Below are positions 11,601 to 55,151 of a stretch of 57,748 nt of DNA, piece after piece. How positions within the stretch are numbered: the stretch's first letter is position 1; each line of letters starts with the position of its first letter. Both the position numbers and the translations under genes were made by a program. The notes under the pieces are model-generated. The model was not told where the DNA came from. It did not search any database and saw only the letters and a list, made by a program, of their open reading frames with translations. The stretch lies in contig JAFUES010000006.1 of NCBI GenBank assembly GCA_017470325.1, forward strand, positions 1 to 57,748. The letters run 5' to 3'. The DNA comes from Oscillospiraceae bacterium. GTDB taxonomy: Bacteria > Bacillota_A > Clostridia > Oscillospirales > Oscillospiraceae.

Positions 11601-12370
11601 CGGTAGATCTCGATCAGGCACTCTTCGCGGCTCTGGGCGGTGTCCTTGTCCAGGGTGGCCACGATGCGCTCATCCTCGCCGAAGATCTCCTTGATGCGCT
11701 CATTGGTGACGGCGCCCACAAAAGGATCGTCCACACAGCTGAGCCAGGTGGCGGGCTTCTCGGGATCGTAAGCGCCCATGGCCTTCAAAAACCAGGTGAT
11801 GGGCAGCTTGCGGTTTTTGTCGATACGGACGTTGAATACGTCGTTGGCGTCCGTCTCATACTCCAGCCAGGCGCCGTGATACGGGATCACGGTGGAGGCG
11901 TAGATGTTGATCATGGACTTGTCCGTGGTCTTGTCGAAATAGACGCCGGGAGAGCGGACGATCTGAGAGACGATCACGCGCTCCGCGCCGTTGATGATGA
12001 AGGTGCCGCCATCGGTCATGATGGGGAAATCTCCCATGAAGATCTCCTGCTCCTTGATCTCCTCCGTCTCCTTATTGCGCAGACGGACCCGGACCTTCAA
12101 AGGCGCGGCGTAGGTGGCGTCACGGGCCTTGCATTCTTCCTCGCTGTACTTGGGCTTCTCATTCATGGAGAAGTCGATGAAGCTCAGTTCCAGATTGCCG
12201 GAAAAGTCCGTAACGGAATCCACATCCTTGAAGACCTCATGCAGACCGGTTTCCAAAAACCATTTGTAGGAGCTCTTCTGGATCTCCAGCAGATTGGGCA
12301 TCTCCTGGATCTCCTCGGTGCGGGCAAAGCTCTTACGCAGAGTTTTGCCGTAGAGAACATCTTTTGGCAT
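8654..12370 (-). CDS. rpoB: RNA polymerase subunit beta
   Basis: The 1238-residue beta subunit. Recognisable segments are the N-terminal [19 protein letters not shown], the rifampicin-pocket region [38 protein letters not shown], the [11 protein letters not shown] motif, and the C-terminal KFATRSTG-like region reading [27 protein letters not shown]. The C-terminus is strongly acidic (residues about 1190-1238). In the rifampicin pocket the usual Gln, Asp, His and Arg/Lys positions appear wild-type-like ([23 protein letters not shown]). Start at 12370 follows GTAAGGAGAG. The gene immediately upstream is divergent, so no rplL precedes rpoB here. Confidence 0.99.
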
Positions 12371-24304: not shown

Positions 24305-26101
24305 TTATCCCAGGAGATCCCGGGTCTCTTCTTCCTCATACTGCCGGGTATAGAGCCGCCAGTAGCCGCTGTGGGCGGCCATCAGCTGCTCATGGGTCCC
24401 CTGCTCCACGATCTTGCCGTTCTCCACATGGAGGATCCAATCGGCGTTGCGGATGGTGGAGAGCCGGTGGGCGATCACGACAGAGGTCCGCCCCTTGATG
24501 ATCGTGTCGATAGCGGATTGGATCTTCTGCTCGGTGAGGGTGTCCACCGAGGCGGTGGCCTCGTCCAGGATCAGGATCCTGGGATCGGCCAGGATGGCCC
24601 GGGCAAAGCTGAGCAGCTGCTTCTCCCCAGTGGACAGCAGATCGCCGCCCTCGCCCACGTCGGTGTCCAATCCCTGTTCCAGCCGCTCCACCAGGTCCTT
24701 GGCGGACACCAGCTCCAATGCTCGGTCGATCTGTTCGTCCGTGGCATGGGGATTGCCGTACATCAGGTTCTCCCGGATGGTGCCGGAGAACAGATGGGGC
24801 GTCTGCAGCACATAGCCGATGGCACTGTGCAGCCAGAGCTGCGAGCGCTCCCGGGCGTCTCTGCCGTCGATCAGCACCCGGCCCTCAGTGGGCTCATAGA
24901 AGCGGCAGATCAGGTTGGCCAGGGTGGATTTCCCGGCGCCGGTCTCCCCCACGATGGCCAGGTTGGTGCCAAAGGGGATCTCCAGACTGAAGTGCTCCAG
25001 CACCATCTCCTCCCCGTCCGGGTATCGAAAGCTCACATCATCGAATGAAATGTCACCGGTGATGGGCTCCCAATTCTCCCGTTTGGGCGAAAAGCTGTCG
25101 CCGTAGCGCTCGATCACCGCTTCGCTGTCCAGCACATCCGGCCGGGTCTCCAACAGGGTGCTCAGCCGCTCGATGTTCACCTGGGTGGTGATCAGGCTGC
25201 CCACGGCGTCCACCACCCAGCGCACCGGCTCCATCATGCCCTGGGCATAGGACATAAACAGGGAGAAGGTGCCGATCTGGCTCCTGGCGATGACGCCGCC
25301 TTTCCACAGCACCAAAGCGATGGCAAGAGACGAAGCAAAATGCATGGTACCGCTGAACAGGCCCCGCAGCCGGGCGGCCCGCACGCTCTGACGCCGCATG
25401 TCCGCCGTGTCCGTCACGAAGTCCCGCTCCATCTTGTCCTCGATGACCAGGCTTTTGATGGTCCGGGCGCCCACGATCCCCTCGTTGAAATTGCCGGTGA
25501 TGCGGGAATTGACCTCCCGGATCCGGCGGTTGAGCAGGGTCAGCTTCCGCTGGAACAGGCTGAACAGAAATACCGTCAGCGGCAGCACAGCCATCACCAA
25601 CAGGGCGAGCCTTGTATTGACAGCCAGCATCACCGCGATGGCGCCGATCAGATAACAGCCCTGCCAGACCCCGTTGAGCAGGGTCCAGGAGCACAGCTCC
25701 CCGATCCGGGAGGTGTCGCTCATGACACGGGAGTGGATATACCCCACGCTGTTTTGGTTGTAATAGGAGAAGGACAGGGTCTGCAGGTGAGAGAAGGCCG
25801 CGTTGCGAAGATCCCGGTCCATCCCCACCTCGATCTTCATGCCGTAGATGCAGGAGATGTAGTTGAATACCGCGCTCACAAGGATGACCGCGATATATAA
25901 AACCAGGAATAACGGCAGTGTATCCAGGGTCCCCAGGGTGACGAAATGATTCAGCGCATAGCGCTGGAACAGAGGCACGCCGATATCCACGATGCTGCCT
26001 GCTCCGCTGGTGAGCAGCATCAGCAGCAGCGGGATCCGGTATGCTTTCAGGTAGGGCCGCAGGGGCGCAAAGCCCAGGAAGCCCTTTCGCTTTTGCCTCA
26101 T
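24305..26101 (-). CDS. ABC exporter half, catalytic-site subunit (TM288-like)
   Basis: A 598-residue fused membrane-plus-ATPase protein. Six membrane helices (about 25-310) precede a nucleotide-binding domain with Walker A GETGAGKST, a Q-loop (VLQTPHLFSGTIRENL), signature LSTGEKQLL and Walker B ILILDEAT with catalytic Glu, then the switch His in VIAHRLS. The signature is non-canonical (LSxGEKQ instead of LSGGQ), as expected for the subunit whose signature serves the degenerate site in heterodimeric exporters. The ATG overlaps the upstream gene's stop (ATGA), so the two halves are translated together. The substrate is unknown; drugs or lipids are usual. Confidence 0.92.
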   Translation of the reverse strand: MRQKRKGFLGFAPLRPYLKAYRIPLLLMLLTSGAGSIVDIGVPLFQRYALNHFVTLGTLDTLPLFLVLYIAVILVSAVFNYISCIYGMKIEVGMDRDLRNAAFSHLQTLSFSYYNQNSVGYIHSRVMSDTSRIGELCSWTLLNGVWQGCYLIGAIAVMLAVNTRLALLVMAVLPLTVFLFSLFQRKLTLLNRRIREVNSRITGNFNEGIVGARTIKSLVIEDKMERDFVTDTADMRRQSVRAARLRGLFSGTMHFASSLAIALVLWKGGVIARSQIGTFSLFMSYAQGMMEPVRWVVDAVGSLITTQVNIERLSTLLETRPDVLDSEAVIERYGDSFSPKRENWEPITGDISFDDVSFRYPDGEEMVLEHFSLEIPFGTNLAIVGETGAGKSTLANLICRFYEPTEGRVLIDGRDARERSQLWLHSAIGYVLQTPHLFSGTIRENLMYGNPHATDEQIDRALELVSAKDLVERLEQGLDTDVGEGGDLLSTGEKQLLSFARAILADPRILILDEATASVDTLTEQKIQSAIDTIIKGRTSVVIAHRLSTIRNADWILHVENGKIVEQGTHEQLMAAHSGYWRLYTRQYEEEETRDLLG

Positions 26102-27921
26102 ATGGCCACCTCCCCGCTGCCGGATTGGATGGCACAGATCTGTTCATACAGGCCGCCCGCGCTTTTCAGCTGCTCGTGGCTTCCCTGCTCCACGATCCGC
26201 CCCCGGTCCAGCACCAGGATCTTGTCCGCCTTGGACAGGGTGGTGATCCGGTGGGAAATGAGGATGATGGTGGCGCTGCCGAAGCGGCTCTCCAGAGAGG
26301 CTCGGATCTTCGCGTCGGTCTCTGTGTCCACGGCGGACAGGGAGTCGTCGAAGATCAGGATCGGTGTATTCTGGCTCAGAGTCCGGGCGATGGCCGCCCG
26401 CTGCTTTTGTCCGCCGGAGAGGGTCAGGCCCCGCTCGCCTACAAAGGTGTCGTAGCCCTTGGAAAAGCCCATAATGGTATTGTCCAGGCAGGCGTCTTTG
26501 GCGGCTTGCCGGATCTTGTCCATATCGAGGGTATCGCCGTAAATGCCGATATTTTCCGCGATGGTGCGGGAGAACAGGAAGGGCTCCTGCAGCACCATGC
26601 CGATGTTCCCGCGCAGATGGTCGGTACGGATATCCCGGATATCCACGCCGCTGATGGAGATGCTTCCCTGCCCCTCCGGCAGCTCGTACAGCTTGTCCAG
26701 CAGCAGCATCAGGGTGGACTTGCCGCTGCCTGTGCCGCCCAGGATGCCCAGTGTGGTCCCGGCGGGCACCGTAAAGCTCAGATCATGCAGCACCTCCGCC
26801 CCGCCCTCATAGGCAAAGGACACATGGGAGAAAGCGATATCCCCGCTCATGTCCGGCGTCAGGCCTTTTCCGGTCTCCCGCTCCTCGGGGGACTGCATGA
26901 TGTAGCGGATACGGTCCAGGGAGACCCCCGCCTTGCTCATCTCAGAGATCATGCGCCCCAGCATGCGCACCGGCCAGGTCATCATGGCGCAGTAGGACAA
27001 GAACGCGATATACGCGCCCGCACCCATCTCGCCCCGGATGCAGGCCGCCGCGCCGAAGACCACGGTCAGCAGGATCTGCGTGCCGGAGAGCACATCGCCC
27101 ACGCTCCAGAAGGTGGCCAGGGGCCGCGCCAGCTTCATCCACAGGGAGGTGTAGTACTCGTTCTGCTGCTCAAAGCGGTCTCGCTCGCTGCGCTCCCGGC
27201 CGAAGGCCCGCACCACGCGTACCCCGGTCAGATTCTCCTGGGCAATGGTGGACAGCACACCCTCATTCTCATCGCAGGCCAGGAAGGCCTCACCGATCTG
27301 CCGGTGGAAATAGAACGAGTATAGGACGATTACCGGCACCGGCAGCATGGTGATCAAGGTCAGCTTTCTGTCCATATCCAGCATAAAGGCCAGGGACAGT
27401 CCCAGCAGGATCAGGATACGGATGATGTTGGTCATCTGCTCGGCCAGGAAGTTCTTCAAGGTATCGATATCCGAGGTGCAGCGCTGGATGATATCCCCGG
27501 TGCGGTTTTGCATATGCCAGGCGTAGGGAAGCCGCTCGATGTGGGAAAACAGGCCGTCCCGCATGGTCTTGACCAGGGTCTCCGCGGCCTTGGTCTTCCA
27601 GACCTCATAGCCGTACTGGGCAAGTGCCTTCGCTATCGCCACTGCAACCAGCGCCAGCGCCAGCAGGCCGATATGTTCTGCCAGATACGCGGTCCCTCCA
27701 AGGCCTTCGATCAGCCTCCGGATATAGGCTGGGAGCGTATCCAGGGACTGACTGCCCAGCACACTGTCCACCGCCGCGCGCACAATCTGGGGCGCGACCA
27801 TATCCGCCAGCGCCGCCAGGGCGGAGGCGAGCATGCTCAGCAGGAACAGCAGCCGGCTGCCCCGTAGGAAGGTGCCAATCATCTGCCGGTTATATCGTTT
27901 TTCCGCTCTCTTGGGATCCAT
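26098..27921 (-). CDS. ABC exporter half, degenerate-Walker-B subunit (TM287-like)
   Basis: A 607-residue partner of the downstream exporter subunit. Six membrane helices (about 20-325) and a nucleotide-binding domain: Walker A GGTGSGKST, canonical signature LSGGQKQR, and Walker B ILIFDDSLSAVD in which Asp replaces the catalytic Glu. Its canonical signature faces the good Walker B of the partner, so the pair has one active and one weak ATP site, as known for TM287/288, BmrCD and LmrCD. Start at 27921 is preceded by GAAAGGG. First gene of a two-gene operon. Confidence 0.92.
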   Translation of the reverse strand: MDPKRAEKRYNRQMIGTFLRGSRLLFLLSMLASALAALADMVAPQIVRAAVDSVLGSQSLDTLPAYIRRLIEGLGGTAYLAEHIGLLALALVAVAIAKALAQYGYEVWKTKAAETLVKTMRDGLFSHIERLPYAWHMQNRTGDIIQRCTSDIDTLKNFLAEQMTNIIRILILLGLSLAFMLDMDRKLTLITMLPVPVIVLYSFYFHRQIGEAFLACDENEGVLSTIAQENLTGVRVVRAFGRERSERDRFEQQNEYYTSLWMKLARPLATFWSVGDVLSGTQILLTVVFGAAACIRGEMGAGAYIAFLSYCAMMTWPVRMLGRMISEMSKAGVSLDRIRYIMQSPEERETGKGLTPDMSGDIAFSHVSFAYEGGAEVLHDLSFTVPAGTTLGILGGTGSGKSTLMLLLDKLYELPEGQGSISISGVDIRDIRTDHLRGNIGMVLQEPFLFSRTIAENIGIYGDTLDMDKIRQAAKDACLDNTIMGFSKGYDTFVGERGLTLSGGQKQRAAIARTLSQNTPILIFDDSLSAVDTETDAKIRASLESRFGSATIILISHRITTLSKADKILVLDRGRIVEQGSHEQLKSAGGLYEQICAIQSGSGEVAI

Positions 27922-37874: not shown

Positions 37875-37912
37875 AAATCGCCCTGCCGTGAAGATGCGGC
37901 AGGGCGATTTTT
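37875..37912. terminator. Bidirectional terminator, EEP gene / MacB-like gene
   Basis: AAATCGCCCTGCCG (37875-37888) pairs with CGGCAGGGCGATTT (37897-37910), T-run on the plus side. Confidence 0.88.
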
Positions 37913-38997
37913 CATGTCTCGTGATAACCGTGCTTTTTCTCCCAGCGTCGCCGCTGGCGGACCCGGATGGCCTCCTCCGCTTTCTCCTTCCAGTCGGGCA
38001 GCAGATCGTCCTCCATCTTGTCCTTGCCCCGGCGCAGCCAGCGCACGAGCCAGACGATCAGAGTGATCGCGGGCAGCACCGCGGCCAGGATCACCAGCAG
38101 CAACAGCAGCGCGCACCAGTCCTCCACGCAGCGGGCCGCGTTCTCCCAATAGGGATAGCTGATGCTCCGGCTCTGCATGGAGCGCAGGCCAAACTGCCGC
38201 AGCAGGCCAAGCAGACGCCCGGCGGTGAAGCGCTCACTGTTTTCCAGGATCACACCGCCGCCGATGGGGAATTTCTCCCGAACGAAATTGACCGCAAAGT
38301 TGTTGACCGGCTCCGCCATGACCAGTTCATAGCAGGTGATGCCCGCATCGTCATGCAGCCGCTTATAGGCGTCGTAGGACATGAACAGACCCATGCCGTC
38401 AGTATAGGCCTTTTTGCTGGCGAAGTCCTGCTCCCGCTCAATGACGCCGGCCACTACGAAGGGCACATTGTCGATCCGCAGCTCCAGACCGGTCAGATCC
38501 GTGCCGCCGAAGAGCAGCCAGGCCGTGTCCTCGTCCAGCAGCACCCGGTCCTGCATCAGGTCGCCTTCCGCCAGGTAATTGCCGCTGAGCAGGCGGATGG
38601 GATGAAAATCGAAGAACGCGCCGCCCACGGCGGTCACGACCACGTCGCCCCTGCCCAGGGTGGTGGAGGCGACACCCTTGCCGCCGGTGCTCCAGGCGTC
38701 CACGAACAGGGTGCTGTCGTTGTCCACATCCAGAGCGGCCTCATGGAACTTGTCCAGCATGGCGTAGCGAAAGGCGTAGACGTCGGCGATCCCGATCCTG
38801 TCATCCGTGGGGATGAAGCAGCTAATCTGGGTAAAGTCCAGTTCATTGTCCCCTCGCCAGCGCCGTGCCTCCTTCTGGGTCTCCAGCAGGCCGGAGAGAT
38901 GCCGGATGGCGATCAACCCGGCAAGCACCGCCAGGACCAGAAGCAGGTTCAGCGCCAGGAAAAGGAGCCGTTTTTTGCTTACGTGTAGTCGTTTCAT
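37912..38997 (-). CDS. MacB-like periplasmic-core permease with two membrane helices
   Basis: A 361-residue protein. An N-terminal helix (about 9-31) leads into an outer domain (about 35-285) like the MacB core domain of ABC efflux permeases: CFIPTDDRIGIADVYAFRYAM, VVVTAVGGAFFDFHPIRLLSGNYL, VLLDEDTAWLLFGGTDLTGL and IDNVPFVVAGVIE. This is the usual MacB order (FF..P..l..G, v.d...A..LFG...G..l.i....f.VvGV). A second helix (about 293-318) and a basic tail follow. MacB has four helices and a fused or adjacent ATPase; here only two helices are seen and no ATPase gene lies nearby. It starts one base after the adaptor gene's stop. Confidence 0.75.
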   Translation of the reverse strand: MKRLHVSKKRLLFLALNLLLVLAVLAGLIAIRHLSGLLETQKEARRWRGDNELDFTQISCFIPTDDRIGIADVYAFRYAMLDKFHEAALDVDNDSTLFVDAWSTGGKGVASTTLGRGDVVVTAVGGAFFDFHPIRLLSGNYLAEGDLMQDRVLLDEDTAWLLFGGTDLTGLELRIDNVPFVVAGVIEREQDFASKKAYTDGMGLFMSYDAYKRLHDDAGITCYELVMAEPVNNFAVNFVREKFPIGGGVILENSERFTAGRLLGLLRQFGLRSMQSRSISYPYWENAARCVEDWCALLLLLVILAAVLPAITLIVWLVRWLRRGKDKMEDDLLPDWKEKAEEAIRVRQRRRWEKKHGYHET

Positions 38998-38998
38998 A

Positions 38999-40876
38999 TC
39001 AGCTGTCCGCCAGCCGGACCAGATCGCCGTTTTTCACCGGAGCGTTGCTGGTGGTGATCACATAGTCGCCGTAGCCCAGATCCGCGGTGACGGCGGAATT
39101 CACATCGTCGCTGGCCAGAACCTCCACATTAACCCGGCGGGCCACATAGCGGTTGCCCAGAGGGGAATTGCGGGCCTCCACCGCCAGCACGAAGCTGCCG
39201 TTGGAGTCGCTGCGGATGGCACTGTTGGGGATGATGGTGTCATAGTTTGCGCTCTTCTGCCCCACAGAGATGGTCAGCTCCGAGCCGGTATTCACATCAC
39301 CGTCCAGATCGAAGGTCAGCATCTTGTTGGTCTGGGGATTTTTCGGGTCCACCTGGATGGTGGTGAGGGTGGCGGTGATCTGATTGCCCCAATAGAAATT
39401 GCTCACAGAGCCCACGTCGCCCGGACGCAGCCGCCGGGCCTGCTCGTTGGTCACCGAGAAGCTGAGGGTGTGACCCATGTCCGGCACCTCGATGCTGCAG
39501 AGCACATCGCCCTTGACCTTGGTGTCGCCGGCGGTGCAGTCCACTGTCTGCACGGTACCGGACACATTGGCGGTGATCTGGTTCTCCTCGCCGCCGGACA
39601 GATCCGCAAGCTTCTCCCGGGCCCGTTCGATCTGGCCCGACAGATCGGCCAGGTCGATCCCGGCCAGGGCCTGGGATCTGGCGTCGCTGGCCTTCTGCTG
39701 CTCCAGGTTGTACACCAGGGTCTCATAGTGGAGCTTGGCCGCGTCCCGGGCGTCCTTGGCTTTTTTATATTCCTCGCTGCTGGAAGAGTTGATGACGATC
39801 TCGTCGATCACGGCTTCGATGGCCGCCAGCTTGTCCTGGGCGGAATTGAGCTCGGCCTCCGCCGCTGTTACAGCATTCTGTGCTTCTTCCAGTTTGTTTT
39901 GCTGTTCAAGCAAATCTCCTTTTGGAGTATTGTTTCTATCCTTCTCTTTGTCTTCAACAGCTTTTGTTTTATTACCAACAGCGTTATCAGCCGCTTGTTT
40001 TGTTAGCGTAGCTGTAGTAATTTCTTCCTTTATAAGAGCAATCTTAGCTTCCGCAGCTTCAATCTCTTCCTGGCTTACCCTCTCATCCTCGGGAGTTTCT
40101 TCTGTCTCATTCTGCTTTCTCTGTTCAAGTGCCGCCTTTTCATCTTCTGCTAATTCTAAATCCCTTGCCAAATCGCGCAGCACACTATCAGCCTCATCAA
40201 CAGCTTTTTGAGCATCACCAAGGTCCTTTACAGCTGCATCCACTTCGGCCTGGGCATTCGCATATGCCTCATCATAAACTGCCTGATACAGGGCAACCGT
40301 CATTTCCTGCTCCGCTACCGCCTTCTTCGCCGCTTCTACCGCGGCCTGAGCGGCTTCCACCTCAGCCTGGGCGGCCGCTTTCTGGGCGTTGGGCAGATCC
40401 CGGGGCGCGGTGTTCTGGACGTCCTGCAGCGCCCGCTCGGCCTCATACCAGGCCTGCTCCGCCGACTCGATCTCCAGCTCCTGCACCTTGTAGCTGTAAA
40501 CAGGGCCCACCGCGGCCTTCTGATAGCTGATCTGCAGGGCGCGCAGGGCCTCTTCCGCGGCCTCGATCTCAGCGCTGTCCCCCTCGCCCAGGATGAACAG
40601 CACGTCGCCCGCGCTGACCTCCTGTCCGGCCTTGACCATGACGGCCCGGATCTCCCGGGTCTGGTCGGCCTTGACCTGATGGGTGCCGTTGGCCGTCACG
40701 GTACCGGTGCCCCGGACCTTGGCGGTGATGGCCCCGTCGGTCACGGACTGGGTGGCCACCTCCGGCAGGCTGCGATTCATCCAGGTGTTGGAAAAGAAGG
40801 TGAGCACCAGCAGCACGGCCAGAAAAACGATGGCCGCGTTCTTGACCCATTCTCTGTTTTTGGGTTTGAAATCCAT
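38999..40876 (-). CDS. HlyD/MacA-type adaptor with very long coiled coil
   Basis: A 625-residue membrane-fusion-protein relative. One N-terminal helix (about 13-33) precedes a lipoyl half (VKADQTREIRAVMVKAGQEVSAGDVLF, about 68-95), a very long Ala/Glu/Lys/Gln-rich coiled coil (about 100-455), the second lipoyl half (ITANVSGTVQTVDCTAGDTVKG-like region, about 450-480), and beta-barrel and membrane-proximal domains to the end. Adaptors of Gram-positive ABC exporters are usually 350-450 residues; the extra length is all coiled coil. Bases about 39890-40230 are much lower in GC than the flanks. AGGAGG precedes the start. It lies 49 bases after a CUT1 permease gene and one base before the MacB-like gene. 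Confidence 0.82.
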   Translation of the reverse strand: MDFKPKNREWVKNAAIVFLAVLLVLTFFSNTWMNRSLPEVATQSVTDGAITAKVRGTGTVTANGTHQVKADQTREIRAVMVKAGQEVSAGDVLFILGEGDSAEIEAAEEALRALQISYQKAAVGPVYSYKVQELEIESAEQAWYEAERALQDVQNTAPRDLPNAQKAAAQAEVEAAQAAVEAAKKAVAEQEMTVALYQAVYDEAYANAQAEVDAAVKDLGDAQKAVDEADSVLRDLARDLELAEDEKAALEQRKQNETEETPEDERVSQEEIEAAEAKIALIKEEITTATLTKQAADNAVGNKTKAVEDKEKDRNNTPKGDLLEQQNKLEEAQNAVTAAEAELNSAQDKLAAIEAVIDEIVINSSSSEEYKKAKDARDAAKLHYETLVYNLEQQKASDARSQALAGIDLADLSGQIERAREKLADLSGGEENQITANVSGTVQTVDCTAGDTKVKGDVLCSIEVPDMGHTLSFSVTNEQARRLRPGDVGSVSNFYWGNQITATLTTIQVDPKNPQTNKMLTFDLDGDVNTGSELTISVGQKSANYDTIIPNSAIRSDSNGSFVLAVEARNSPLGNRYVARRVNVEVLASDDVNSAVTADLGYGDYVITTSNAPVKNGDLVRLADS

Positions 40877-40925
40877 GAGGCTTCCTCCTGTTTGACAGGC
40901 TTATACACGTGGTTTTTATTAGTTA

Positions 40926-41804
40926 TTATCCCTTGACGCTGCCGGAATTGGCAATACCTTCTACCAAGTATTCCTCACCGTGGAGGAACAGCAGCAGGGA
41001 CGGCACCATGTAGATGGTGGCCATGGCAAAGGCCAGGCCGATCTCCCCGGCGTTGATGGAGGAGAGGAACACCGACAGGGGCTGCTGCTCCGCGTCCTGC
41101 AGCAGGATCAGCGGCTGCTCCACCATGTTCCAGTAGTCGATGAATACCAAAATCGCGATGGAGTACAGGGCCGAGCGGCACTGGGGCAGGCAGATCTTCG
41201 TAAAGATCTCCCACTCGCCCGCGCCGTCCACCTTGGCCGCCTCGATCAGCGAATAGGGGATGCGGCGCATGAACTTGGTCAGCAGGAACACCGAAAAGGG
41301 GGCGAAGATCCCGGGCAGGATGATGGCCCAGCGGGTGTTCAGGATGCCCAGCCACTGGCTGACCAGATAGTTGGGGACCAGGGTCACCTGGTAGGGCATG
41401 AGCATCAGGATCACGTAGAAGAAGAAAATGCCGCTCCTGATCTTGCCCCGCCAGCGGGTGAAGCTATACGCCGCCACCGCGGCCACAGCCACCTGGAAGA
41501 TCACGATGGGGACCACCAGGATCAGACTGTTCCAGAACTTGATCAGATAATCCGGGGACTTGATCAGCCCTGTCACATACTGGGACAGGGTGACCTTGTC
41601 GGGGATGAATTTCAGATTCACCGTCTCGGACACATAGCCGCCCGAGGTGGTGGAAAAGATCATGCCGTAGTTGGATTTGATCTCCGACTCGGACATGAAG
41701 GAATTGGTGATGGTCAGTACCGTGGGCATCAGGAACATCAGCGCGAAGACGGCGCAGAGGATGAACATGCCCACACGGCCGAAGGTACGCTTCTTTTTCC
41801 TCAT
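40926..41804 (-). CDS. Carbohydrate ABC permease, MalG/CUT1 type
   Basis: A 292-residue inner-membrane permease with six helices. The coupling loop that contacts the ATPase reads LIEAAKVDGAGEWEIFTKICLPQCRSAL, the EAA motif of binding-protein-dependent importers (about 188-215). The N-terminal domain matches MalG-type proteins (ALMFLMPTVLTITNSFMSESE). It overlaps the preceding permease gene by ATGA. No ATPase is encoded nearby, which is usual for CUT1 systems served by a shared MsmK-type ATPase. The substrate cannot be told from the permeases. Confidence 0.92.
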   Translation of the reverse strand: MRKKKRTFGRVGMFILCAVFALMFLMPTVLTITNSFMSESEIKSNYGMIFSTTSGGYVSETVNLKFIPDKVTLSQYVTGLIKSPDYLIKFWNSLILVVPIVIFQVAVAAVAAYSFTRWRGKIRSGIFFFYVILMLMPYQVTLVPNYLVSQWLGILNTRWAIILPGIFAPFSVFLLTKFMRRIPYSLIEAAKVDGAGEWEIFTKICLPQCRSALYSIAILVFIDYWNMVEQPLILLQDAEQQPLSVFLSSINAGEIGLAFAMATIYMVPSLLLFLHGEEYLVEGIANSGSVKG

Positions 41805-42688
41805 CCCTCCACGTCCTTTCCGAACCAGTCCTCCACCTTGAACAGCAGGGCGATCAGCACCACCATCACGATGGCCATGATCACCGCCGCGGCGGAGAGC
41901 TTCTGGTAATCCAGACTGCGGAAGGTGTTGTTCATAAAGTGCTGCAGCATATACAGCTTCTCATAGGGGTAATCCCCCGTGAGCAGATACACCTCACGAA
42001 AGACCTTGAAGGAATTGATCAGCGACAGGATGGTGACGAAAAGTACCGTGGGCGACAGGTAGCGCAGCTTGATGGCAAAGAACTTGTAGACCTCCGAGGC
42101 GCCGGACACGTCCGCCACCTCCAGCAGATCCCGGGGGATGTTGGACAGGCCCGCCATGAACAGGATCATGTTGTAGCCCAGATTCTTCCACAAAAACAGG
42201 ATCAGCACCACGATCTGGCAATAGTCGGACTGGAGCCAGTCGATCTTGTCCCCGCCAAAGAGCAGCAAAAACTCGTTGACGGTCCCGTTGTAGTTAAACA
42301 GCACCTGCCAGATCAGCACCACCGAGGCCACGGGGACCATCATGGGACTGAGGAAAAAGGTGCGAAACTGGGACTTCAACGGGATCCGGCATTCCAGCAT
42401 CAGGGCCAGAACGATGGCCAGTACCACCGCCAGCGGCACCGCGATCAGGGAAAAGTGCAGGGTGTTCCTGGCCGCCATCAGAAAGGCCGAATTGTGAAAC
42501 AGCTTTATGAAATTTTGCAGGAACACGAAATTCCTGGAGCCCACCCCGTCGATCAGGGCGTAATAGACCACCACGCCGAAGGGCAGGATGAAAAACACGC
42601 CCACCCCCAGCAGGCTGGGTGACAGGTAACAGAGGCTGTGCAGGAAATCCTTTTGCCGGTCGCTCAATTGTATGCTGTGCCTTTTCAT
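41801..42688 (-). CDS. Carbohydrate ABC permease, MalF/CUT1 type
   Basis: A 295-residue permease with six helices and the EAA loop LLEVADVSGASEVYKFFAIKL (about 190-210). It pairs with the MalG-type protein to form the importer channel. The start is set at 42688 (MKRHSIQL) because the longer frame from 42724 would start at the inferred transcription start; the ribosome site is weak (GGTAACGAATCC). It is the first gene of the promoter-distal operon permease-permease-adaptor-MacB-like. Confidence 0.88.
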   Translation of the reverse strand: MKRHSIQLSDRQKDFLHSLCYLSPSLLGVGVFFILPFGVVVYYALIDGVGSRNFVFLQNFIKLFHNSAFLMAARNTLHFSLIAVPLAVVLAIVLALMLECRIPLKSQFRTFFLSPMMVPVASVVLIWQVLFNYNGTVNEFLLLFGGDKIDWLQSDYCQIVVLILFLWKNLGYNMILFMAGLSNIPRDLLEVADVSGASEVYKFFAIKLRYLSPTVLFVTILSLINSFKVFREVYLLTGDYPYEKLYMLQHFMNNTFRSLDYQKLSAAAVIMAIVMVVLIALLFKVEDWFGKDVEG

Positions 42689-42732
42689 GGATTCGTTACC
42701 ACTTCGTAATATCTTGTGTTTCAATTCATCGT

Positions 42733-42782
42733 ATTATACTACATCTGGAATCTCTGCGCAAGGCAAGCTAAGGATTCTTAAG
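42733..42782 (-). promoter_or_regulatory. Promoter and paired regulator boxes for the permease operon
   Basis: Minus strand TTGCGC (42756-42761), 17 bases, TATAAT (42733-42738). Immediately upstream lie CTTAAG (42777-42782) and CTTAGC (42767-42772), spaced 10 bases from first base to first base and ending five bases from the -35. This arrangement is that of OmpR/PhoB-type activator sites and matches the boxes at 45326-45341. Confidence 0.6.
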
Positions 42783-42794
42783 AATTTCCGAAAG

Positions 42795-42820
42795 AAAAAG
42801 GCGGGAAAACCCGCCTTTTT
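42795..42820. terminator. Terminator after the binding-protein gene
   Basis: AAAAAGGCGGG (42795-42805) pairs perfectly with CCCGCCTTTTT (42810-42820). It lies between the binding-protein gene and the permease promoter, so the two are separate units. Confidence 0.9.
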
Positions 42821-42832
42821 CCTGGCGCCCGT

Positions 42833-45253
42833 TCAGCGCTGTTCGTTGACGTAAATATTGGCCTTGCTCTGGATCAGACGGGCCACCTCCTCGGCGCTCT
42901 TCTGGCCGGCGAAGAAGGCCTGGGCCTGCTCGTTGACAATGTCGTAGATGCTGTCGCTCTCGTCCGCCACCTTGGTGGTGCTCATGATGACCGCCAGCAG
43001 CTTGTCGGCCTGCTCCTGGGTCAAAGCGTAGATATACTTGATGGAGCCGTCCGCCATGCCGTAGGAGCCGCGGCTGACCTGGATCTTTTCACCGTTTTGG
43101 TCCAGGACGAAGTTGCCTTCCGCATCCTTGCGGTACTCGGGGGTCATGGCCTTTTTCAGCATGGTGTTGAAGGCGTTCACATTGGTGGGCAGACCCCAGC
43201 CGTTCTGCTGGTTCTCCTCCAGCAGGAAGCTGCGCAAAAACTGCCAGCCGGCCTGCTTGTCGATGCACTTGCTGCTCATGGCGTAGAGCGAGCCGTCCCC
43301 GGCCCCCAGGCGGAGCATGCTGCCCACGCCCTCGTTGGTGGGATAACCGATATAGGTGGTGTCGCCGCCGAAGTACATGTCGTTGTAGATGATGCTGTCC
43401 ACATAGTAGATGCCGGCGTTCATGAGCATCTGGCGGCCGTCTTTGATGCGGTTTTCCGTCTGGTCGGCGTCGGTCCACTCATAGTTGTCCCAGTCGAAAG
43501 CCTTGGGGAAGCGGGCCGCAAAGTTCAGCATGTCGATGAAGTTCTGGCTGTCGAAGCTGACCTTGCCTGTGTTCCAGTCCACCAGGCTGTCCATCTCCAG
43601 AGAGAGCAGGGTGCGCAGCATATCGTCCCGGGTGGTATACTGGTCCAGGGGATCGCAGCCGGCGGGCATCCTGGCCAGGGCCGCGTTGAATTCCGCGTAG
43701 GTCCAGCCCGGGGTGTCCCCCACCACAGAGCTGGCGCCGATCAGGGTGTTGATGGCAAAGAACGGGGTGATCTCATACAGCTTACCGTCCACCTCCATGG
43801 CCTTCAGCACATTGGCGAAGAAGTCGCTGCGGTCCAGCTGCTTATCCGCGTCCAGATAGGGGTACAGGTCCTCCAGCAGGCCCTTGGCAGCCAGCTGGCT
43901 GTAGGGCAGATTGCTCAGGCACAGCAGATCGGGCAGCTTGCCGGAGAGGATCTCCGTGGTCAGCTTGGTGAGGCCGGCGCTGGTATCCTCCTCGGTGTTG
44001 TACTGGGAATAGTCCACCACGCGGATGCGGCTGGTATCGCTGCCCCGGTTGAAGCGGATGATGGCGTTGCTCAGCTCATAATTGTAGTTGATATCCATGA
44101 CCGCCAGGGTCAGCTCCGTCTTGTGCGGAACGGAATCATAGGGCACCTGGGTCAGGTTCACCAGCTCCGTGGTGACCTGTTCCGACTGATCGTAGTTGTT
44201 GAGCACGCCGATGATGCTGCCGTCCTCGTTCACATGGACGCCGCTCATGTAGTTGCCGTTGATGTCCACATCCAGCCAGTTGAGGATGCGCTCCCCCTCC
44301 TGGGTCTCCAGCTTGTAGCCATAGAGGCTCTGCCCGCCGATGTAGTAGAGATCATAGTCTCCGCCGCCGGGCAGCATGTCGTAGGCGTCATTGGGCAGGG
44401 CATAGATCTCATCGGTCAGTTTATGAGCGTCCATGTCCAGCATGTGCAGCTCCATGCCGTTTTCCCCATACTGACTGAAGCCCAGACGGCCGTCCTTCAG
44501 CTGGACGACGCTGTTCACATAGTCCTCGGTCGGGATGGTGTAGGCCACGCTGCCGTCCTGCTTGACGGCCACCACTTGCATGTCGCTGGTGGCGAGGATG
44601 TTGTCGTCTCCGTCCAGCTTCATGTTATAGAAGCCCAGGTAGCCGCCGTTGCCGGTATCGTAATCGACCTTTGCCTGGCTCAGCTCCTTGCCCTTGCTGT
44701 CCAGGATACGGATGATGTAATCGTCGTTGTACTCCCAGAGCTGCCAGGCATCGTCCGCATCCATCTGGGATTCATCGCCGGTGAAGTAGCTGACATAGTT
44801 GTTCTCCACGACAATCAGCTTCCCGTCGCCGGTAAGGCTCATGCCCACGATGCCGGAGCCGGAATAGAAGCCGACATAGCCCTCGGTGTTCTCCGCCGCG
44901 GGCAGCGGCTCATAGTCCGTCAGCTTTTTGGCGCTGCCGTCCTTGCCAACGAAGTACAGCCGCGGCTCAAACACGTCGTACTGGCCCTCATACTCGATGG
45001 TGGCTCCCTCGGGGACCGCCGTCCCCACCTTTTCATGGGAGGTCACATAGAAGCCGCCCTCGGTAAAGACCTGGGGACTCATAAACGAATCGCCGCCGTT
45101 GACGGTCTTATACGCCGCGGTATAGACATATTCCGGGGTCTCTGTCTCCTCTGGCGCGGGCTCCTCCCCGCCCTGCTTGCCGCAGGCGGTTAAGCCCAGC
45201 ATCAGCACCAGGGTCAGAAACAGCGCAAGCAAAGATCTCACTTTTTTATTCAT
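42833..45253 (-). CDS. Solute-binding lipoprotein with N-terminal beta-propeller-like domain
   Basis: An 806-residue lipoprotein: signal peptide with lipobox GLTAC (Cys24), an acidic linker, then about 330 residues of repeated beta-rich segments (FEPRLYFVGKDGSAKKLTDY; LTGDGKLIVVENNYVSYF; DDNILATSDMQVVAVKQDGS; VQLKDGRLGFSQYGENG; VHVNEDGSIIGVLNN) that look like propeller blades. A type 1 sugar-binding-protein fold follows from about residue 373 (TELTLAVMDINYNYELSNAI, FNRGSD, LPDLLCL, GLLEDLYPYLD). Ordinary CUT1 binding proteins are 400-550 residues. Start at 45253 follows AGGAGG by six bases; the frame upstream is an artefact. It is divergent from a two-component system. Confidence 0.85.
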   Translation of the reverse strand: MNKKVRSLLALFLTLVLMLGLTACGKQGGEEPAPEETETPEYVYTAAYKTVNGGDSFMSPQVFTEGGFYVTSHEKVGTAVPEGATIEYEGQYDVFEPRLYFVGKDGSAKKLTDYEPLPAAENTEGYVGFYSGSGIVGMSLTGDGKLIVVENNYVSYFTGDESQMDADDAWQLWEYNDDYIIRILDSKGKELSQAKVDYDTGNGGYLGFYNMKLDGDDNILATSDMQVVAVKQDGSVAYTIPTEDYVNSVVQLKDGRLGFSQYGENGMELHMLDMDAHKLTDEIYALPNDAYDMLPGGGDYDLYYIGGQSLYGYKLETQEGERILNWLDVDINGNYMSGVHVNEDGSIIGVLNNYDQSEQVTTELVNLTQVPYDSVPHKTELTLAVMDINYNYELSNAIIRFNRGSDTSRIRVVDYSQYNTEEDTSAGLTKLTTEILSGKLPDLLCLSNLPYSQLAAKGLLEDLYPYLDADKQLDRSDFFANVLKAMEVDGKLYEITPFFAINTLIGASSVVGDTPGWTYAEFNAALARMPAGCDPLDQYTTRDDMLRTLLSLEMDSLVDWNTGKVSFDSQNFIDMLNFAARFPKAFDWDNYEWTDADQTENRIKDGRQMLMNAGIYYVDSIIYNDMYFGGDTTYIGYPTNEGVGSMLRLGAGDGSLYAMSSKCIDKQAGWQFLRSFLLEENQQNGWGLPTNVNAFNTMLKKAMTPEYRKDAEGNFVLDQNGEKIQVSRGSYGMADGSIKYIYALTQEQADKLLAVIMSTTKVADESDSIYDIVNEQAQAFFAGQKSAEEVARLIQSKANIYVNEQR

Positions 45254-45325
45254 CTTCATCCTCCTGTAAAGAAAGATTTGTTTTCTCAGGCAGCCGTAGT
45301 ATATCACATAATACAGTGGAAGTAT

Positions 45326-45373
45326 CTTAAGTTTTCTTAAATTATTGGTATCGCTGAAAAAATGTGGTACAAT
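45326..45373. promoter_or_regulatory. Divergent control region: paired CTTAA boxes and kinase-pair promoter
   Basis: CTTAAG (45326-45331) and CTTAAA (45336-45341) are 10 bases apart. On the plus strand they end three bases before TTGGTA (45345-45350), then 17 bases and TACAAT (45368-45373), the promoter of the two-component system. On the minus strand the same boxes abut the weak -35 region of the binding-protein gene, whose -10 is TATACT at about 45298-45303. One site could thus serve both directions. Confidence 0.6.
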
Positions 45374-45404
45374 GATCCCGTCAACCGACAGATCGGAGGT
45401 GCCT

Positions 45405-46094
45405 ATGGCCGCTCTTTCCCGTATCCTCATAGTAGATGACGATCCCGACATCCGAAAAGTTCTCCAGCTTTTGCTGAAAGATAAATATTTTGTCGCCGAG
45501 GCGGCGGATGGTCTTGCCGCCATCGAGTTCATCCGCGCCAATCCCGATACCGACCTGGTGGTGCTGGACGTGATGATGCCCGGTCTGGACGGCATCCAGA
45601 CCTGCGAGGAGCTGCGCAAGCTCTCCAACGTCCCGGTGCTGTTCCTCACGGCAAAGTCCGCCGAGCAGGACCGGGTCTCCGCCTATGAGAGCGGCGGGGA
45701 CGATTTCCTGTCCAAGCCCTTTTCCCAGGCGGAGCTGCTGGCCAAGGTCAGCTCCCTGCTTCGCCGCTATCAGGAGTACCGGGGCAAGCCCGCCGGGGTG
45801 CTGACGGTGGAGAATCTGGAGGTGGACTTCGCCTCCCGCACGGTCAAGAGCGCCGGAAAGAGCGTCACCCTCACCGACACCGAGTATTCCATCCTGGAGT
45901 TCATGCTGAAAAACCGCGGCACAGTGGTCACCGCCGCCGATCTCTACGAGTCCGTTTGGGGCGAGAAATTCCTCTCCGGCTCCGGTAACACCGTGATGGT
46001 GCACGTGCTGAACCTGCGCCGCAAGATCGAGGAGAATCCCTCCGCGCCCAAGATCATCCGTACCGTCTGGGGAAGGGGTTATCAGATTGATTAA
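45405..46094 (+). CDS. OmpR-family response regulator
   Basis: A 229-residue regulator. The receiver domain has the acidic pair in ILIVDDDPDIRKV, the phospho-acceptor Asp55 in VVLDVMMPGLDG, Thr in FLTAKS and Lys in LSKPFSQAELL. The C-terminal winged helix (about 130-229) reads VTLTDTEYSILEFMLKNRG and ends with KIIRTVWGRGYQ, as in VanR/PhoB. Start at 45405 follows GGAGG. Its likely target sites are the CTTAAG-type pairs at 45326-45341 and 42767-42782. Confidence 0.95.
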   Translation: MAALSRILIVDDDPDIRKVLQLLLKDKYFVAEAADGLAAIEFIRANPDTDLVVLDVMMPGLDGIQTCEELRKLSNVPVLFLTAKSAEQDRVSAYESGGDDFLSKPFSQAELLAKVSSLLRRYQEYRGKPAGVLTVENLEVDFASRTVKSAGKSVTLTDTEYSILEFMLKNRGTVVTAADLYESVWGEKFLSGSGNTVMVHVLNLRRKIEENPSAPKIIRTVWGRGYQID

Positions 46095-47412
46095 GCGTCT
46101 TCCGCGCTCTCTGGACGCGAAGATCCTGTACATCATTATACTGGCATTGCTCTGCGCCTTGCTGGTGTATTTTGTCGCCTACGGGCTGGGCACCATGGCC
46201 CTGGACAGGATCTACATGAGCCAGGAGTCTGTCTCCGCCCGCCAGGCGGCCTTCTATACCGATTTCAGCCAGTTCGTGGCCCAGTATCAGGTCCGGGGCG
46301 ACGACGGGCAGAGCATCGCCCGCTGGACGGTGGACAACGCCTATGTGACCATCCTGGTCTTCCGGGAGGGCGAGCTGCAGCTGCGCGCCTGGGACGGGAT
46401 CGTCCAGACCGCCAGCGACATGCAGGGCTATGAGCGGCTGCTCTACGCCTCCCAATACAACAAGCTCTACCCCATGGGCTTTGCCGACGGGCAGTATCAG
46501 ATCGCCATCGGCGACGGCACCGACGCCCGGGAGGACCAGCTCAACTGGGACATCTCCCTGCTTCTGGCGGTGGTCAGCTTCTTCGCCGTGGTGCTCTGGT
46601 ATATGCGGCGGCTGACAAGGCGGGTCATCCTCCTGTCTCAGGAGGCGGGCGCCATCGGCGCCGGCGACCTGGACCACCCCATCACCGTCAAGGGCGGCGA
46701 CGAGCTGGCGGAGCTGGCCACGGATGTGGACAGCATGCGCCGCTCGGTCATTGAGCGCATGGGCAACGAGAAGCGGGCCTGGGAGGCCAACAGTGAGCTG
46801 ATCACCGCCATCTCCCACGACATCCGCACCCCCATGACCTCCCTGCTGGGCTATCTGGACCTGCTCCACGAGGGCAGCTTCGAGACGCCGGAGCAGGGTC
46901 GGCAGTTCGCCGCCTCCGCCCGGGACAAGGCCATGGAGCTCAAGGACCTGACCGACGAGCTGTTCCGCTATTTTCTGGTGTTCAGCCGTTCGGAGCTGGA
47001 GCTGAACATGGAGAGCTTCGACGCGCGGCTGCTGCTGGAGCAGCTGCTGGGTGAGGCGGAGTTCGATCTCAGCGACGCGGGCTTCACGGTCAGCCGCATC
47101 GAGTTTGAGGGCGAATGCGGCGTTCGCGCGGACCCGCTCTATCTCAAGCGGGTGCTGGACAATCTGGTGTCCAACGCCAAGAAATACGCCGATAAAGAGC
47201 GCCCCATTCTGGTAGTCACCGAGCGGAAGGAGTCTTCCCTCTCCGTCTGCATGTCCAACTATGTGGCAGCCGCGGCCCCTCGGGTGGAGAGCACCAAGAT
47301 CGGCCTGCGCACCTGCGAGAAGATCATGTCCGCCATGGGCGGCAGCTTCAACACCACCCGGGATGAGGAGCACTTCGCCGCGGAGTTCACCCTGCCGGTA
47401 CAAAGCCTGTAA
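46087..47412 (+). CDS. Sensor histidine kinase with compact ATPase domain
   Basis: A 441-residue kinase with two membrane helices (about 14-36 and 158-176) around a 120-residue outer sensor domain, a HAMP-like linker (about 178-230), the H-box AISHDIRTPMTSLLGYLDLL with His near 244, and the N-box DNLVSNAKKYAD. After the N-box the usual DxGxG and F-box elements are not visible: the chain passes from CMSNYVAAAAPRVESTK to IGLRTCEKIMSAMGGSF, so the ATP lid is short. The start is a TTG overlapping the regulator's stop codon (eight-base overlap), with AAGGGG upstream. It likely senses an envelope or solute signal for the divergent transport genes. Confidence 0.92.
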   Translation: MIKRLPRSLDAKILYIIILALLCALLVYFVAYGLGTMALDRIYMSQESVSARQAAFYTDFSQFVAQYQVRGDDGQSIARWTVDNAYVTILVFREGELQLRAWDGIVQTASDMQGYERLLYASQYNKLYPMGFADGQYQIAIGDGTDAREDQLNWDISLLLAVVSFFAVVLWYMRRLTRRVILLSQEAGAIGAGDLDHPITVKGGDELAELATDVDSMRRSVIERMGNEKRAWEANSELITAISHDIRTPMTSLLGYLDLLHEGSFETPEQGRQFAASARDKAMELKDLTDELFRYFLVFSRSELELNMESFDARLLLEQLLGEAEFDLSDAGFTVSRIEFEGECGVRADPLYLKRVLDNLVSNAKKYADKERPILVVTERKESSLSVCMSNYVAAAAPRVESTKIGLRTCEKIMSAMGGSFNTTRDEEHFAAEFTLPVQSL

Positions 47413-53285: not shown

Positions 53286-55151
53286 ATGATCGACGTACAG
53301 ATAAATTCTCTGGTCAAGTCCTTCGAGGTGGGCAGCAACGTGCTGGACGGTCTCAGCTTCGCCGTTAATTCCGGGGAGCGAGTGGGGATATTGGGCCATA
53401 ATGGGTGCGGAAAAACAACGCTTTTTCGCATCATGGTGGGGGAACTGTACCCGGATGAGGGTACCGTGACCACAGCGCCCGGCAAGCGCATCGGCCTCAT
53501 TTCCCAGATCCCGGTCTATCCGGAGGACTGGACCACGGAGGACGTGCTGCGCGACGCTCACCAGCGGCTCTACGCCATCAGCCGCCGGATCGACGAGCTG
53601 ACGGCACAGATGGAGACCGACCAGTCCCCCGCCCTGCTGCGGGAATACGACCGGCTCAGCGACGACTTCCGCCGCCTGGGCGGCTACAGCATGGAGACGG
53701 ACCGCAACCGGGTGGCCAATGGCCTGCAGATCCCGGCGGCCATGCGCGAGCAGCTGTTCTCCAGTCTCTCCGGCGGGGAGAAGACCCGGGTCAACCTGGC
53801 CCGCCTGATCCTTGAGGATACAGATATCCTGCTGCTGGACGAGCCCACCAACCATCTGGACCTGCGGGCCACCGAGTGGCTGGAGGACTATCTCCTGCAT
53901 TTCAAGGGCACCGTCCTCACCATCAGCCATGACCGCTATTTCCTGGACCGGGTGGTTGAGCGCTGCGTGGAGATCAGCGAGGGCAGAGCAGAGTTCTACA
54001 GCGGCAACTACAGCTTCTACGTACAGGAGCGGCAGCACCGCTTCGAGGAAAAGCTGAAGAAATACGAGAAGGACCAGGCCAAGATCGAGCAGCTGACCCG
54101 GGCCGCCGAGCAGATGCACCTCTGGGCCTTCATGGGCAACGACAAGCTGCACAAGCGGGCCTTCTCCATGGAAAAGCGCATCGAAAAGCTCCAGCAGAGC
54201 GAGAAGCCCACGGAGCAGAAAAAGCTGAGCGTGAAGTTCAAGCAGCGGGAATTCAACGGCGACGAGGTGCTGGTGACCGAAGGGCTGAGCAAGGCCTTCG
54301 GGGAAAAGCGCCTGTTTTCGGACCTGTCCCTGACCGTCACCGGCGGGGAGCGGATCGCCCTGATCGGCGACAACGGCACCGGTAAGTCCACCCTCATCAA
54401 GCTGATCATGCAGCAGGAGACGCCGGACACGGGCTATCTGTACCTGGGCCCCGCCGTGCGCAGCGCCTACCTGCCCCAGATCGTGACCTTTTCCTCGGAC
54501 AGCCGCTCCGCCCTGGACACCATGCTCTACGACTGCCGCTGCCAGCCCCAGGAGGCCCGGGACCGTCTGGCCGCCTTCGGCTTCCGGGGCGAGGACGTGC
54601 TCACCCCCGTGGGGGCCCTTTCCGGCGGGGAGCGCAGCCGCCTGCGCTTGTGCATGCTCATGGGCGGCGACGTGAACTTCCTGATCCTGGACGAGCCCAC
54701 CAACCACCTGGACATTGCCAGCCGGGAGTGGATGGAGGACGCCCTGTCCGACTATGAGCAGACCCTGCTGTTCGTGTCCCACGACCGCTATTTCATCGAG
54801 AAATTCGCCACCCGGATCTGGGCCCTGGACAGGGGCGAGATCACGGATTACCGGGGCGGCTACGCCGACTACGCGGCATGGCGGGAACGGCAGGCCGTCT
54901 TCACCCAGATCGAGAAGGCCGCCCCCAAAAAGAAGAAGGAAGAAAAGCCCCGCACCCCCAACCACGACAGGCAGATCGCCAGGGTGGAACGGGAGATCGG
55001 GCGGCTGGAAGATAAGCTGGCCGGGCTGGAAGCCCTGGCCGAGGAGCACGCCACGGACTATCAGAAGCTGATGGAGATCGAGGCGCAGAAGGAAGAGCTG
55101 AACCAGGCGCTCCTGCTCCAATATGAGAGATGGGAGGAAATGAACGGATGA
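53286..55151 (+). CDS. ABC-F ribosome-associated ATPase
   Basis: A 621-residue soluble protein with two ATP-binding domains. The first has Walker A GHNGCGKTT (about 37-45), signature LSGGEKTR and Walker B ILLLDEPTNHLD; the second has GDNGTGKST, LSGGERSR and FLILDEPTNHLD. The interdomain linker (about 240-325) is Lys/Glu-rich and helical, as in proteins that probe the ribosomal P-site tRNA, and the C-terminus (about 540-621) is a Lys/Glu coiled coil. The ribosome site AAGGAG lies inside the end of the PBP gene. It may be a translation factor or give resistance; the subgroup is not settled. Confidence 0.94.
   Translation: MIDVQINSLVKSFEVGSNVLDGLSFAVNSGERVGILGHNGCGKTTLFRIMVGELYPDEGTVTTAPGKRIGLISQIPVYPEDWTTEDVLRDAHQRLYAISRRIDELTAQMETDQSPALLREYDRLSDDFRRLGGYSMETDRNRVANGLQIPAAMREQLFSSLSGGEKTRVNLARLILEDTDILLLDEPTNHLDLRATEWLEDYLLHFKGTVLTISHDRYFLDRVVERCVEISEGRAEFYSGNYSFYVQERQHRFEEKLKKYEKDQAKIEQLTRAAEQMHLWAFMGNDKLHKRAFSMEKRIEKLQQSEKPTEQKKLSVKFKQREFNGDEVLVTEGLSKAFGEKRLFSDLSLTVTGGERIALIGDNGTGKSTLIKLIMQQETPDTGYLYLGPAVRSAYLPQIVTFSSDSRSALDTMLYDCRCQPQEARDRLAAFGFRGEDVLTPVGALSGGERSRLRLCMLMGGDVNFLILDEPTNHLDIASREWMEDALSDYEQTLLFVSHDRYFIEKFATRIWALDRGEITDYRGGYADYAAWRERQAVFTQIEKAAPKKKKEEKPRTPNHDRQIARVEREIGRLEDKLAGLEALAEEHATDYQKLMEIEAQKEELNQALLLQYERWEEMNG

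Follow-up and report, generated by a model that had tools for sequence, protein, structure and literature searches.

The window examined here, a stretch of 57,748 nt from the Oscillospiraceae bacterium contig JAFUES010000006.1 (GCA_017470325.1) to which all coordinates refer, harbors at 37912..47412 a cluster whose transport genes we read, with a probability of roughly 55%, as those of an ATP-binding cassette (ABC) importer of the CUT1 type that has permanently incorporated parts of a MacAB exporter and forms a platform serving several binding proteins. The finding that carries this reading is that the genes for two permeases (PermF and PermG), an adaptor and a MacB-like protein constitute one conserved unit. 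MacA/HlyD-type adaptors and MacB folds are known for their roles in export, lipoprotein release and signalling. In the importer that we envisage, the adaptor and the periplasmic domain of the MacB-like protein would surround or cover the permease pair at the outer side of the membrane and provide a docking platform that crosses the wall. There, lipoprotein binding proteins of several kinds might pass their ligands to the single permease pair, with import powered by an MsmX-type ATPase encoded elsewhere. A divergent kinase/regulator pair would control the binding protein and would, in some species, extend this control to the core. If true, importer, adaptor and MacB parts can be assembled by a Gram-positive cell into an intake complex across its wall, and a large set of binding proteins can share one permease pair; this could explain the many permease-less binding proteins in gut and rumen Clostridia.

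A first-pass annotation of the window had described five transport genes in line on the minus strand, faced by an OmpR-type regulator/kinase pair. In our check of the open reading frames (ORFs) all seven are in place, and Pfam agrees with this description. Both permeases score above the curated BPD_transp_1 cut-off, as befits a CUT1 permease pair, and residues 423-683 of the 806-residue binding protein match SBP_bac_1, the domain of family 1 binding proteins, with 26.9 bits against a cut-off of 26. The features of the cluster are as follows.

42833..45253, minus strand: lipoprotein of 806 residues with an N-terminal all-beta (propeller-like) part and a C-terminal CUT1 solute-binding domain
44141..45130, minus strand: propeller-like module of this protein, residues ~42-371, 24 predicted strands, putatively six blades
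41801..42688, minus strand: PermF, MalF/UgpA-type permease, 295 residues (BPD_transp_1)
40926..41804, minus strand: PermG, MalG/UgpE-type permease, 292 residues (BPD_transp_1)
38999..40876, minus strand: MacA/RND-type adaptor (membrane fusion protein), 625 residues, one N-terminal membrane helix, hypervariable hairpin
37912..38997, minus strand: MacB-like protein, 361 residues; a helix, the MacB periplasmic core domain and a single long helix at the C-terminus, without the FtsX membrane part
45345..46094, plus strand: OmpR-family response regulator (response regulator and Trans_reg_C domains); the true start may be internal
46087..47412, plus strand: sensor kinase (HAMP/HisKA/HATPase in Pfam)
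45325..45340, minus strand: direct repeat TTAAGA-N4-TTAAGA, predicted operator upstream of the binding-protein gene, exact match
42768..42783, strand not assigned (reported on the plus strand): imperfect copy of the repeat with 2 mismatches upstream of PermF, weak alone
42794..42822, minus strand: terminator-like hairpin between the binding-protein gene and PermF, read by eye from the sequence

PermF, PermG, the adaptor and the MacB-like protein form one conserved unit

The first-pass annotation had supposed that these genes make up one combined device, an idea that would suffer if the adaptor/MacB pair were not co-conserved with the permeases. Our comparison strongly supports the idea, whereas the further proposals that the binding protein signals through the adaptor, or that propeller, adaptor and MacB-like protein are mechanically linked, stay speculative. 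The best 80 of 214 relatives provided 78 distinct loci with a MacB-like protein (the close loci), and 64 of these, with at least 4.5 kb of upstream sequence, were scored for contiguity. PermF, PermG, adaptor and MacB-like genes are contiguous and in this order in 63 of the 64; in the sole exception, L035, the adaptor ORF is split or broken. PermF and PermG abut, with a gap of 0 in the ORF calls, in 62 of the 64.

We also ran profiles of the MacB-like protein and of PermF on a sample of 393 genomes of the class. The MacB-like profile matched in 60 genomes (E <=1e-6), and its weak matches do not all belong to this family: L137, one of the short loci L110-L138, has an ATPase but neither an adaptor nor a MacB-like match, and this genome count consequently includes ordinary MacB proteins. 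Twenty of the stronger MacB-like places (down to 46 bits; 12.5-20 kb each) were read, and all contain the block in the same order, with L157 starting at PermG, where its contig has its edge. In the reverse direction, the PermF profile found 56 places in 50 genomes at E 1e-60; from these, 20 further stretches were read, leaving aside the places covered before as well as eight strong and six low-scoring places. Adaptor sequence is present in 19 of these 20 remote loci (as a 122-residue fragment in L193) and a MacB-like gene in 16 (at only 19-25 bits in L184, L185, L186 and L198). The adaptor/MacB-like pair stands before, not after, the permeases in L184, L185 and L194, and L189 has no PermG call. 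Of the 41 genomes matched by an adaptor profile (E 1e-25), 39 belong to the 50 that have PermF; as the PermF and adaptor profiles contain sequences from the same sample, this reverse test is not fully independent.

Each of the 20 genomes reached through the loci has one strong MacB-like match and a single PermF match of at least 71% identity, the next CUT1 permease reaching at most 34%; the second, weak MacB-like match in the sister genome G015 is its true MacB. Pairwise distances of the four block proteins, calculated over 96 of 115 loci (19 lack a full copy of one gene; L032, L035 and L061 had been excluded beforehand), correlate at r 0.93-0.98, with a maximum of 0.31 in 500 permutations. 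These correlated distances show joint inheritance of the four proteins, not contact between them.

Conservation in 64 close and 40 remote loci rules out chance neighbours or a local rearrangement. A chimeric contig is ruled out as well, since G015 (L033) has the identical gene order including both flanking genes. None of three ordinary CUT1 loci in G015 has an adaptor or MacB call, and their binding proteins are 436-466 residues long. In four loci (L144-L147), an ABC ATPase gene and a gene for a protein of ~725-750 residues lie directly upstream of PermF; this protein has a weak DUF6449 match in L144, the only one of the four examined.

Adaptor, MacB-like protein and ATPase

The MacB-like protein of the window contains a MacB_PCD domain (residues 111-215; Pfam), and fold matches indicate that the periplasmic core of MacB is kept. 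The first-pass annotation had called it a MacB core permease, a name that has to be given up. The FtsX domain (PF02687) is absent from the window's protein and, at E 1e-3, from all 46 MacB-like members scanned, and is detected in the MacB of L206 (G015), our positive control; two membrane helices are predicted for the window's protein and its clade, and four or more for remote members. Without an FtsX domain and with two helices only, a function as exporter permease is ruled out for the window's clade.

The adaptor scores above the Pfam cut-off for Biotin_lipoyl and below it for the other two lipoyl/HlyD domains; against TIGR01730 it reaches E 1.1e-12 with 47.6 bits, less than the cut-off of 94.9. 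Its profile matches MacA structures, as expected for an RND/HlyD-type adaptor. The protein had been described as exceptionally long, and at 625 residues it is so in comparison with the 371-residue MacA chain of 5nik, but its length is ordinary for its own family, which spans 228-852 residues over 96 loci. The hairpin encoded by L037:7693-9933 contains a long run of acidic/proline repeats in place of a regular coiled coil; hence, the adaptor hairpin varies in make-up as well as in length.

Like the CUT1 importers MalFGK2 and MsmEFGK with their shared MsmX ATPase, the family combines a BPD_transp_1 pair, a SBP_bac_1 domain and, in relatives of the window system, a MalK-type ATPase. Other CUT1 systems, however, are not known to contain an adaptor or a MacB-like subunit. 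Compared with the MacAB-TolC, Gram-positive YknWXYZ and pneumococcal (5xu1) exporters, the window block has neither a MacB-type ATPase beside it nor an FtsX domain, and the four-helix FtsX-type permease of MacAB is missing; the membrane part of the window's clade amounts to two helices and is joined to importer permeases. The window system appears to be an ABC importer with exporter-derived subunits that falls outside the MacAB group. Within the accessible portion of the open-access literature, we found no importer described that includes adaptor and MacB parts; in what is available of PMC12838199, a false lead, 'MACB' is a strain name.

A motif scan of the window detected no MalK-type ATPase; its only ATPase motifs belong to a half-exporter at 26098-27921 (ABC_membrane and ABC_tran) and to a protein with two such motifs at 53286-55151. 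The first-pass statement that an ATPase gene is missing holds for the MalK type in the window, but not for all of its relatives: of the 70 loci whose sequence continues for 1.2 kb past the MacB-like gene, 11 have a MalK/MsmX-type ATPase gene immediately behind it (L061, L062, L063, L065, L066, L069, L071, L073, L075, L076 and L078). With MacB-like proteins 41-46% identical, they belong to the more distant part of the 78 close loci; in the remote L156, too, such an ATPase gene comes right after the MacB-like gene. G019 and G020 each possess one CUT1 PermF match and one MalK/MsmX-type ATPase, side by side, and G015 has an unlinked MsmX-like gene (L202). The MalK-type ATPase of the family has OB and TOBE domains. 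An original six-gene operon from which the ATPase gene later moved away is the simplest reading. The first-pass annotation had regarded a separate ATPase for each half, at a fixed partner locus, as a sign of two unrelated halves. This arrangement was not seen: where an ATPase is linked, it is of the MalK type and directly follows the MacB-like gene. In G015, the ordinary MacAB set occupies a locus apart (L206:3145-8678) and has its own ABC ATPase and an FtsX-type MacB.

Propeller-type binding proteins and their control

About 330 extra N-terminal residues of propeller-like character had been claimed for the binding protein. The extra part is indeed present, while its propeller fold is a prediction from the 24 strands, a number that fits six blades; structure searches returned the binding domain only, and the fold comparison covered residues 377-806 and is thus uninformative on the propeller part. 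C24 of the protein is invariant in our alignment A2. The 120 listed relatives of the propeller part have 781-836 residues, except one of 525, and most of them carry a binding-protein domain. No match to the binding protein was found among plasmids, and a plasmid origin is thus not backed.

Propeller-type proteins (E 1e-50) occur in 14 of the 393 class genomes, all 14 with PermF, and their gene lies next to PermF in 43 of the 59 close loci with 7.5 kb of upstream sequence. Between 1 and 30 matches were counted per genome (20 genomes), some of which are pieces of one gene, with only part of the candidates scored; the paralogue matches fit the binding domain better, and many start near position 380. 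The 25 paralogue ORFs read in G006 (529-907 residues) all lie outside operons that include CUT1 permeases, and at L169 an ordinary CUT1 pair lies 3.4 kb away on the opposite strand. For the weakest of these paralogues, a propeller is presumed from their length. A strict pairing of propeller and adaptor was considered and dropped, because remote loci with ordinary-sized binding proteins (414-467 residues in L180, L181, L187, L188, L190 and L194) keep the adaptor and the MacB-like gene, and because paralogues resemble each other less in the propeller than in the binding domain.

Several paralogues have neighbours of their own. In G006, long paralogues lie beside a sigma-70/extracytoplasmic function (ECF) gene in L165, L176 and L159 (assigned by Pfam for L176, by eye for L165 and L159), and another lies between ABC ATPase/large permease pairs and regulator-kinase genes (L173). 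In L203:3977-9153 and L214:3870-8906, genes for a response regulator, a kinase of ~666 residues and a propeller-type binding protein are co-directional and away from the core. In a 1094-residue ORF of G003 (L215:4984-8268), a propeller-type binding protein is fused to a BlaR1-type peptidase M56 domain (residues 5-313); the ORF reaches 595 bits against the propeller-type profile, with SBP_bac_1 below cut-off, and is possibly a one-piece ligand sensor.

A more far-reaching picture, which we put forward tentatively and hold to be rather doubtful in its entirety, is that of a 'tripartite importer' as a distinct class of ABC uptake systems in Clostridia. A MacA-type ring and a MacB-derived collar would create a wall-spanning intake chamber over the CUT1 pair, and the single-copy core would be supplied with ligands by a large number of propeller-tipped binding proteins whose genes lie apart from it. 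Capture of the complete MacB permease would have come first, and its reduction to a scaffold, within the Oscillospiraceae line, later.

The kinase/regulator pair is divergent from the binding-protein gene in 32 of the 43 loci with a binding protein beside the core, and where the core is not adjacent, it stays with the binding protein (L082, L083, L085, L086 and L088). A site of the form TTTAAGA-AAN-YTTAAGA, scored at a threshold of at least 13 of 16 positions, lies upstream of the binding-protein gene in 32 of 33 kinase-pair loci, the window included; in the failing locus, L025, the gene start as called is internal. Because the site adjoins the regulator gene and takes the form of a direct repeat, it is a predicted operator, to which the regulator probably binds. 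Four matches with at most 2 mismatches are present in the window (mean of 0.78 in shuffled sequences, 3 of 100 of which also reached four), so that the second copy, upstream of PermF, carries little weight alone. The hairpin preceding PermF suggests that the permease operon may have its own promoter. Sites before PermF are clear in L013 and L019 and weaker in L023 and L018 among the core-only loci, and clear in L009 and weaker in L004, L022 and L024 among 15 loci linked to a binding-protein gene. Four genomes together contain 29 copies with at most 1 mismatch, versus one for the reversed pattern, and 13 of the 29, irrespective of orientation, precede PermF or the gene of a long binding-protein paralogue by at most 350 bp (3 of 4 in G001, 2 of 9 in G015, 1 of 6 in G006 and 7 of 10 in G008, three of the latter being one array; two of the 13 were placed by coordinates). 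Most scanned paralogues of G006 and G008 have no good site. The repeat also precedes a lipoprotein gene and genes whose large products have signal-peptide-like N-termini (L220, L227, L228, L229 and L203:15091), which suggests a wider envelope regulon.

The paralogue neighbours give real support to a sensor role. One might hence suppose that the system is mainly a receptor, in which loaded propeller-type binding proteins act on the permease/adaptor/MacB-like complex and the kinase reads its state in a Bce-like manner, with bulk uptake being minor. Besides the divergent kinase pair and its persistence beside the binding protein when the core is elsewhere, the paralogues in regulator-kinase operons (L203, L214), the M56 fusion (L215) and the paralogue after an ECF sigma gene (L176) fit this idea, as does the lack of binding of any tested sugar by the relative CbpC, according to the accessible text of PMC9601137. 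We nevertheless consider it unlikely. Seven ATPase-linked loci with enough sequence (L063, L065, L066, L069, L071, L075 and L076) have no kinase pair beside the binding protein, and two full CUT1 permeases plus an ATPase would be costly for a sensor. Kinases next to sugar transporters are, moreover, common regulators. Compared with a Bce-type sensory transporter, the window set has an adjacent kinase but no FtsX permease and no adjacent ATPase.

Cargo, the CbpC cluster and remaining alternatives

We infer both the transport direction and the cargo of the window system: its CUT1 membership and the GH9-CBM3 cellulase genes found close downstream of the core at L149:10744-13353 and L152:12517-15141 suggest a carbohydrate. 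A counterpart exists in Clostridium (Acetivibrio) thermocellum, where L181 encodes CbpC itself, with residues 24-460 identical to 7x0o, and the genes for PermF, PermG, the adaptor and the MacB-like protein come next. This 'transporter C' cluster differs from the window in that CbpC (460 residues) has no propeller, its MacB-like protein has six predicted membrane helices and its adaptor reads as two ORFs. In the available portions of PMC9601137, the legend to Fig. 1 places an 'acra' gene among the clusters without stating in which, and 'efflux' occurs in that legend only; the main text mentions neither HlyD nor MacB.

Several observations weigh against an importer built on incorporated exporter parts. 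The CbpC cluster, a remote family member, is the only studied relative found. According to PMC9601137, a mutant with inactivated transporter C grew normally on glucose, cellobiose and Avicel, and none of the sugars tested was bound by CbpC, whose pocket is obstructed by a loop; an earlier study, as noted there, had reported binding. As CbpC is remote and lacks the propeller, this result may not carry over to the window system, yet it speaks against a sugar cargo. In addition, 16 of the 59 close loci were scored as having no propeller-type binding protein beside the core (L061 only through a partial ORF pick), and in 11 of the 15 core-only loci no significant operator precedes PermF. Four of the 20 loci found through PermF have no MacB-like gene (L193, L195, L197 and, at a contig edge, L196), and L191 contains a second permease pair, which is accompanied by a weak MacB-like gene but by no called adaptor. 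The six low-scoring PermF places left out (G040:C178, G226, G048, G195:C75, G212:C15 and G313) count on this side as well. The CbpC cluster, whose function the 2022 study (PMC9601137), in its available part, left open, is a cultured and genetically tractable test case.

It is quite improbable that the adaptor and the MacB-like protein serve envelope cargo such as wall fragments, glycopolymers or lipids, which the CUT1 set would recycle, so that no dietary sugar system would be involved. Adaptors and MacB/Lol/Ykn folds do act at the envelope, in line with the fold matches of the MacB-like protein; the one strong copy in 20 of 20 genomes and the failure of CbpC to bind any tested sugar (PMC9601137, accessible text) also agree with this proposal. 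However, 25 differing binding-protein paralogues in one genome argue for varied ligands, and two loci have cellulase genes close to the core. That two independent transporters share an operon, the adaptor/MacB-like pair working with another ATPase and permease, has hardly any probability left, since the placement of the pair before the permeases in L184, L185 and L194 is outweighed by the conserved order and junctions, by the matched divergence of the four proteins and by a MacB-like protein that has no FtsX domain to pump with.

One of the genes flanking the window cluster encodes an Exo_endo_phos protein (Pfam), and the other, named by eye, we take to be a glycine hydroxymethyltransferase gene. 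Elsewhere in the window, a CotH-kinase/Fn3-associated protein (22269-24263) adjoins the ABC half-exporter pair at 24305-27921. The RNA polymerase beta' and beta genes occupy 4914-12370 on the minus strand, opposite equally long plus-strand open frames with no Pfam match.

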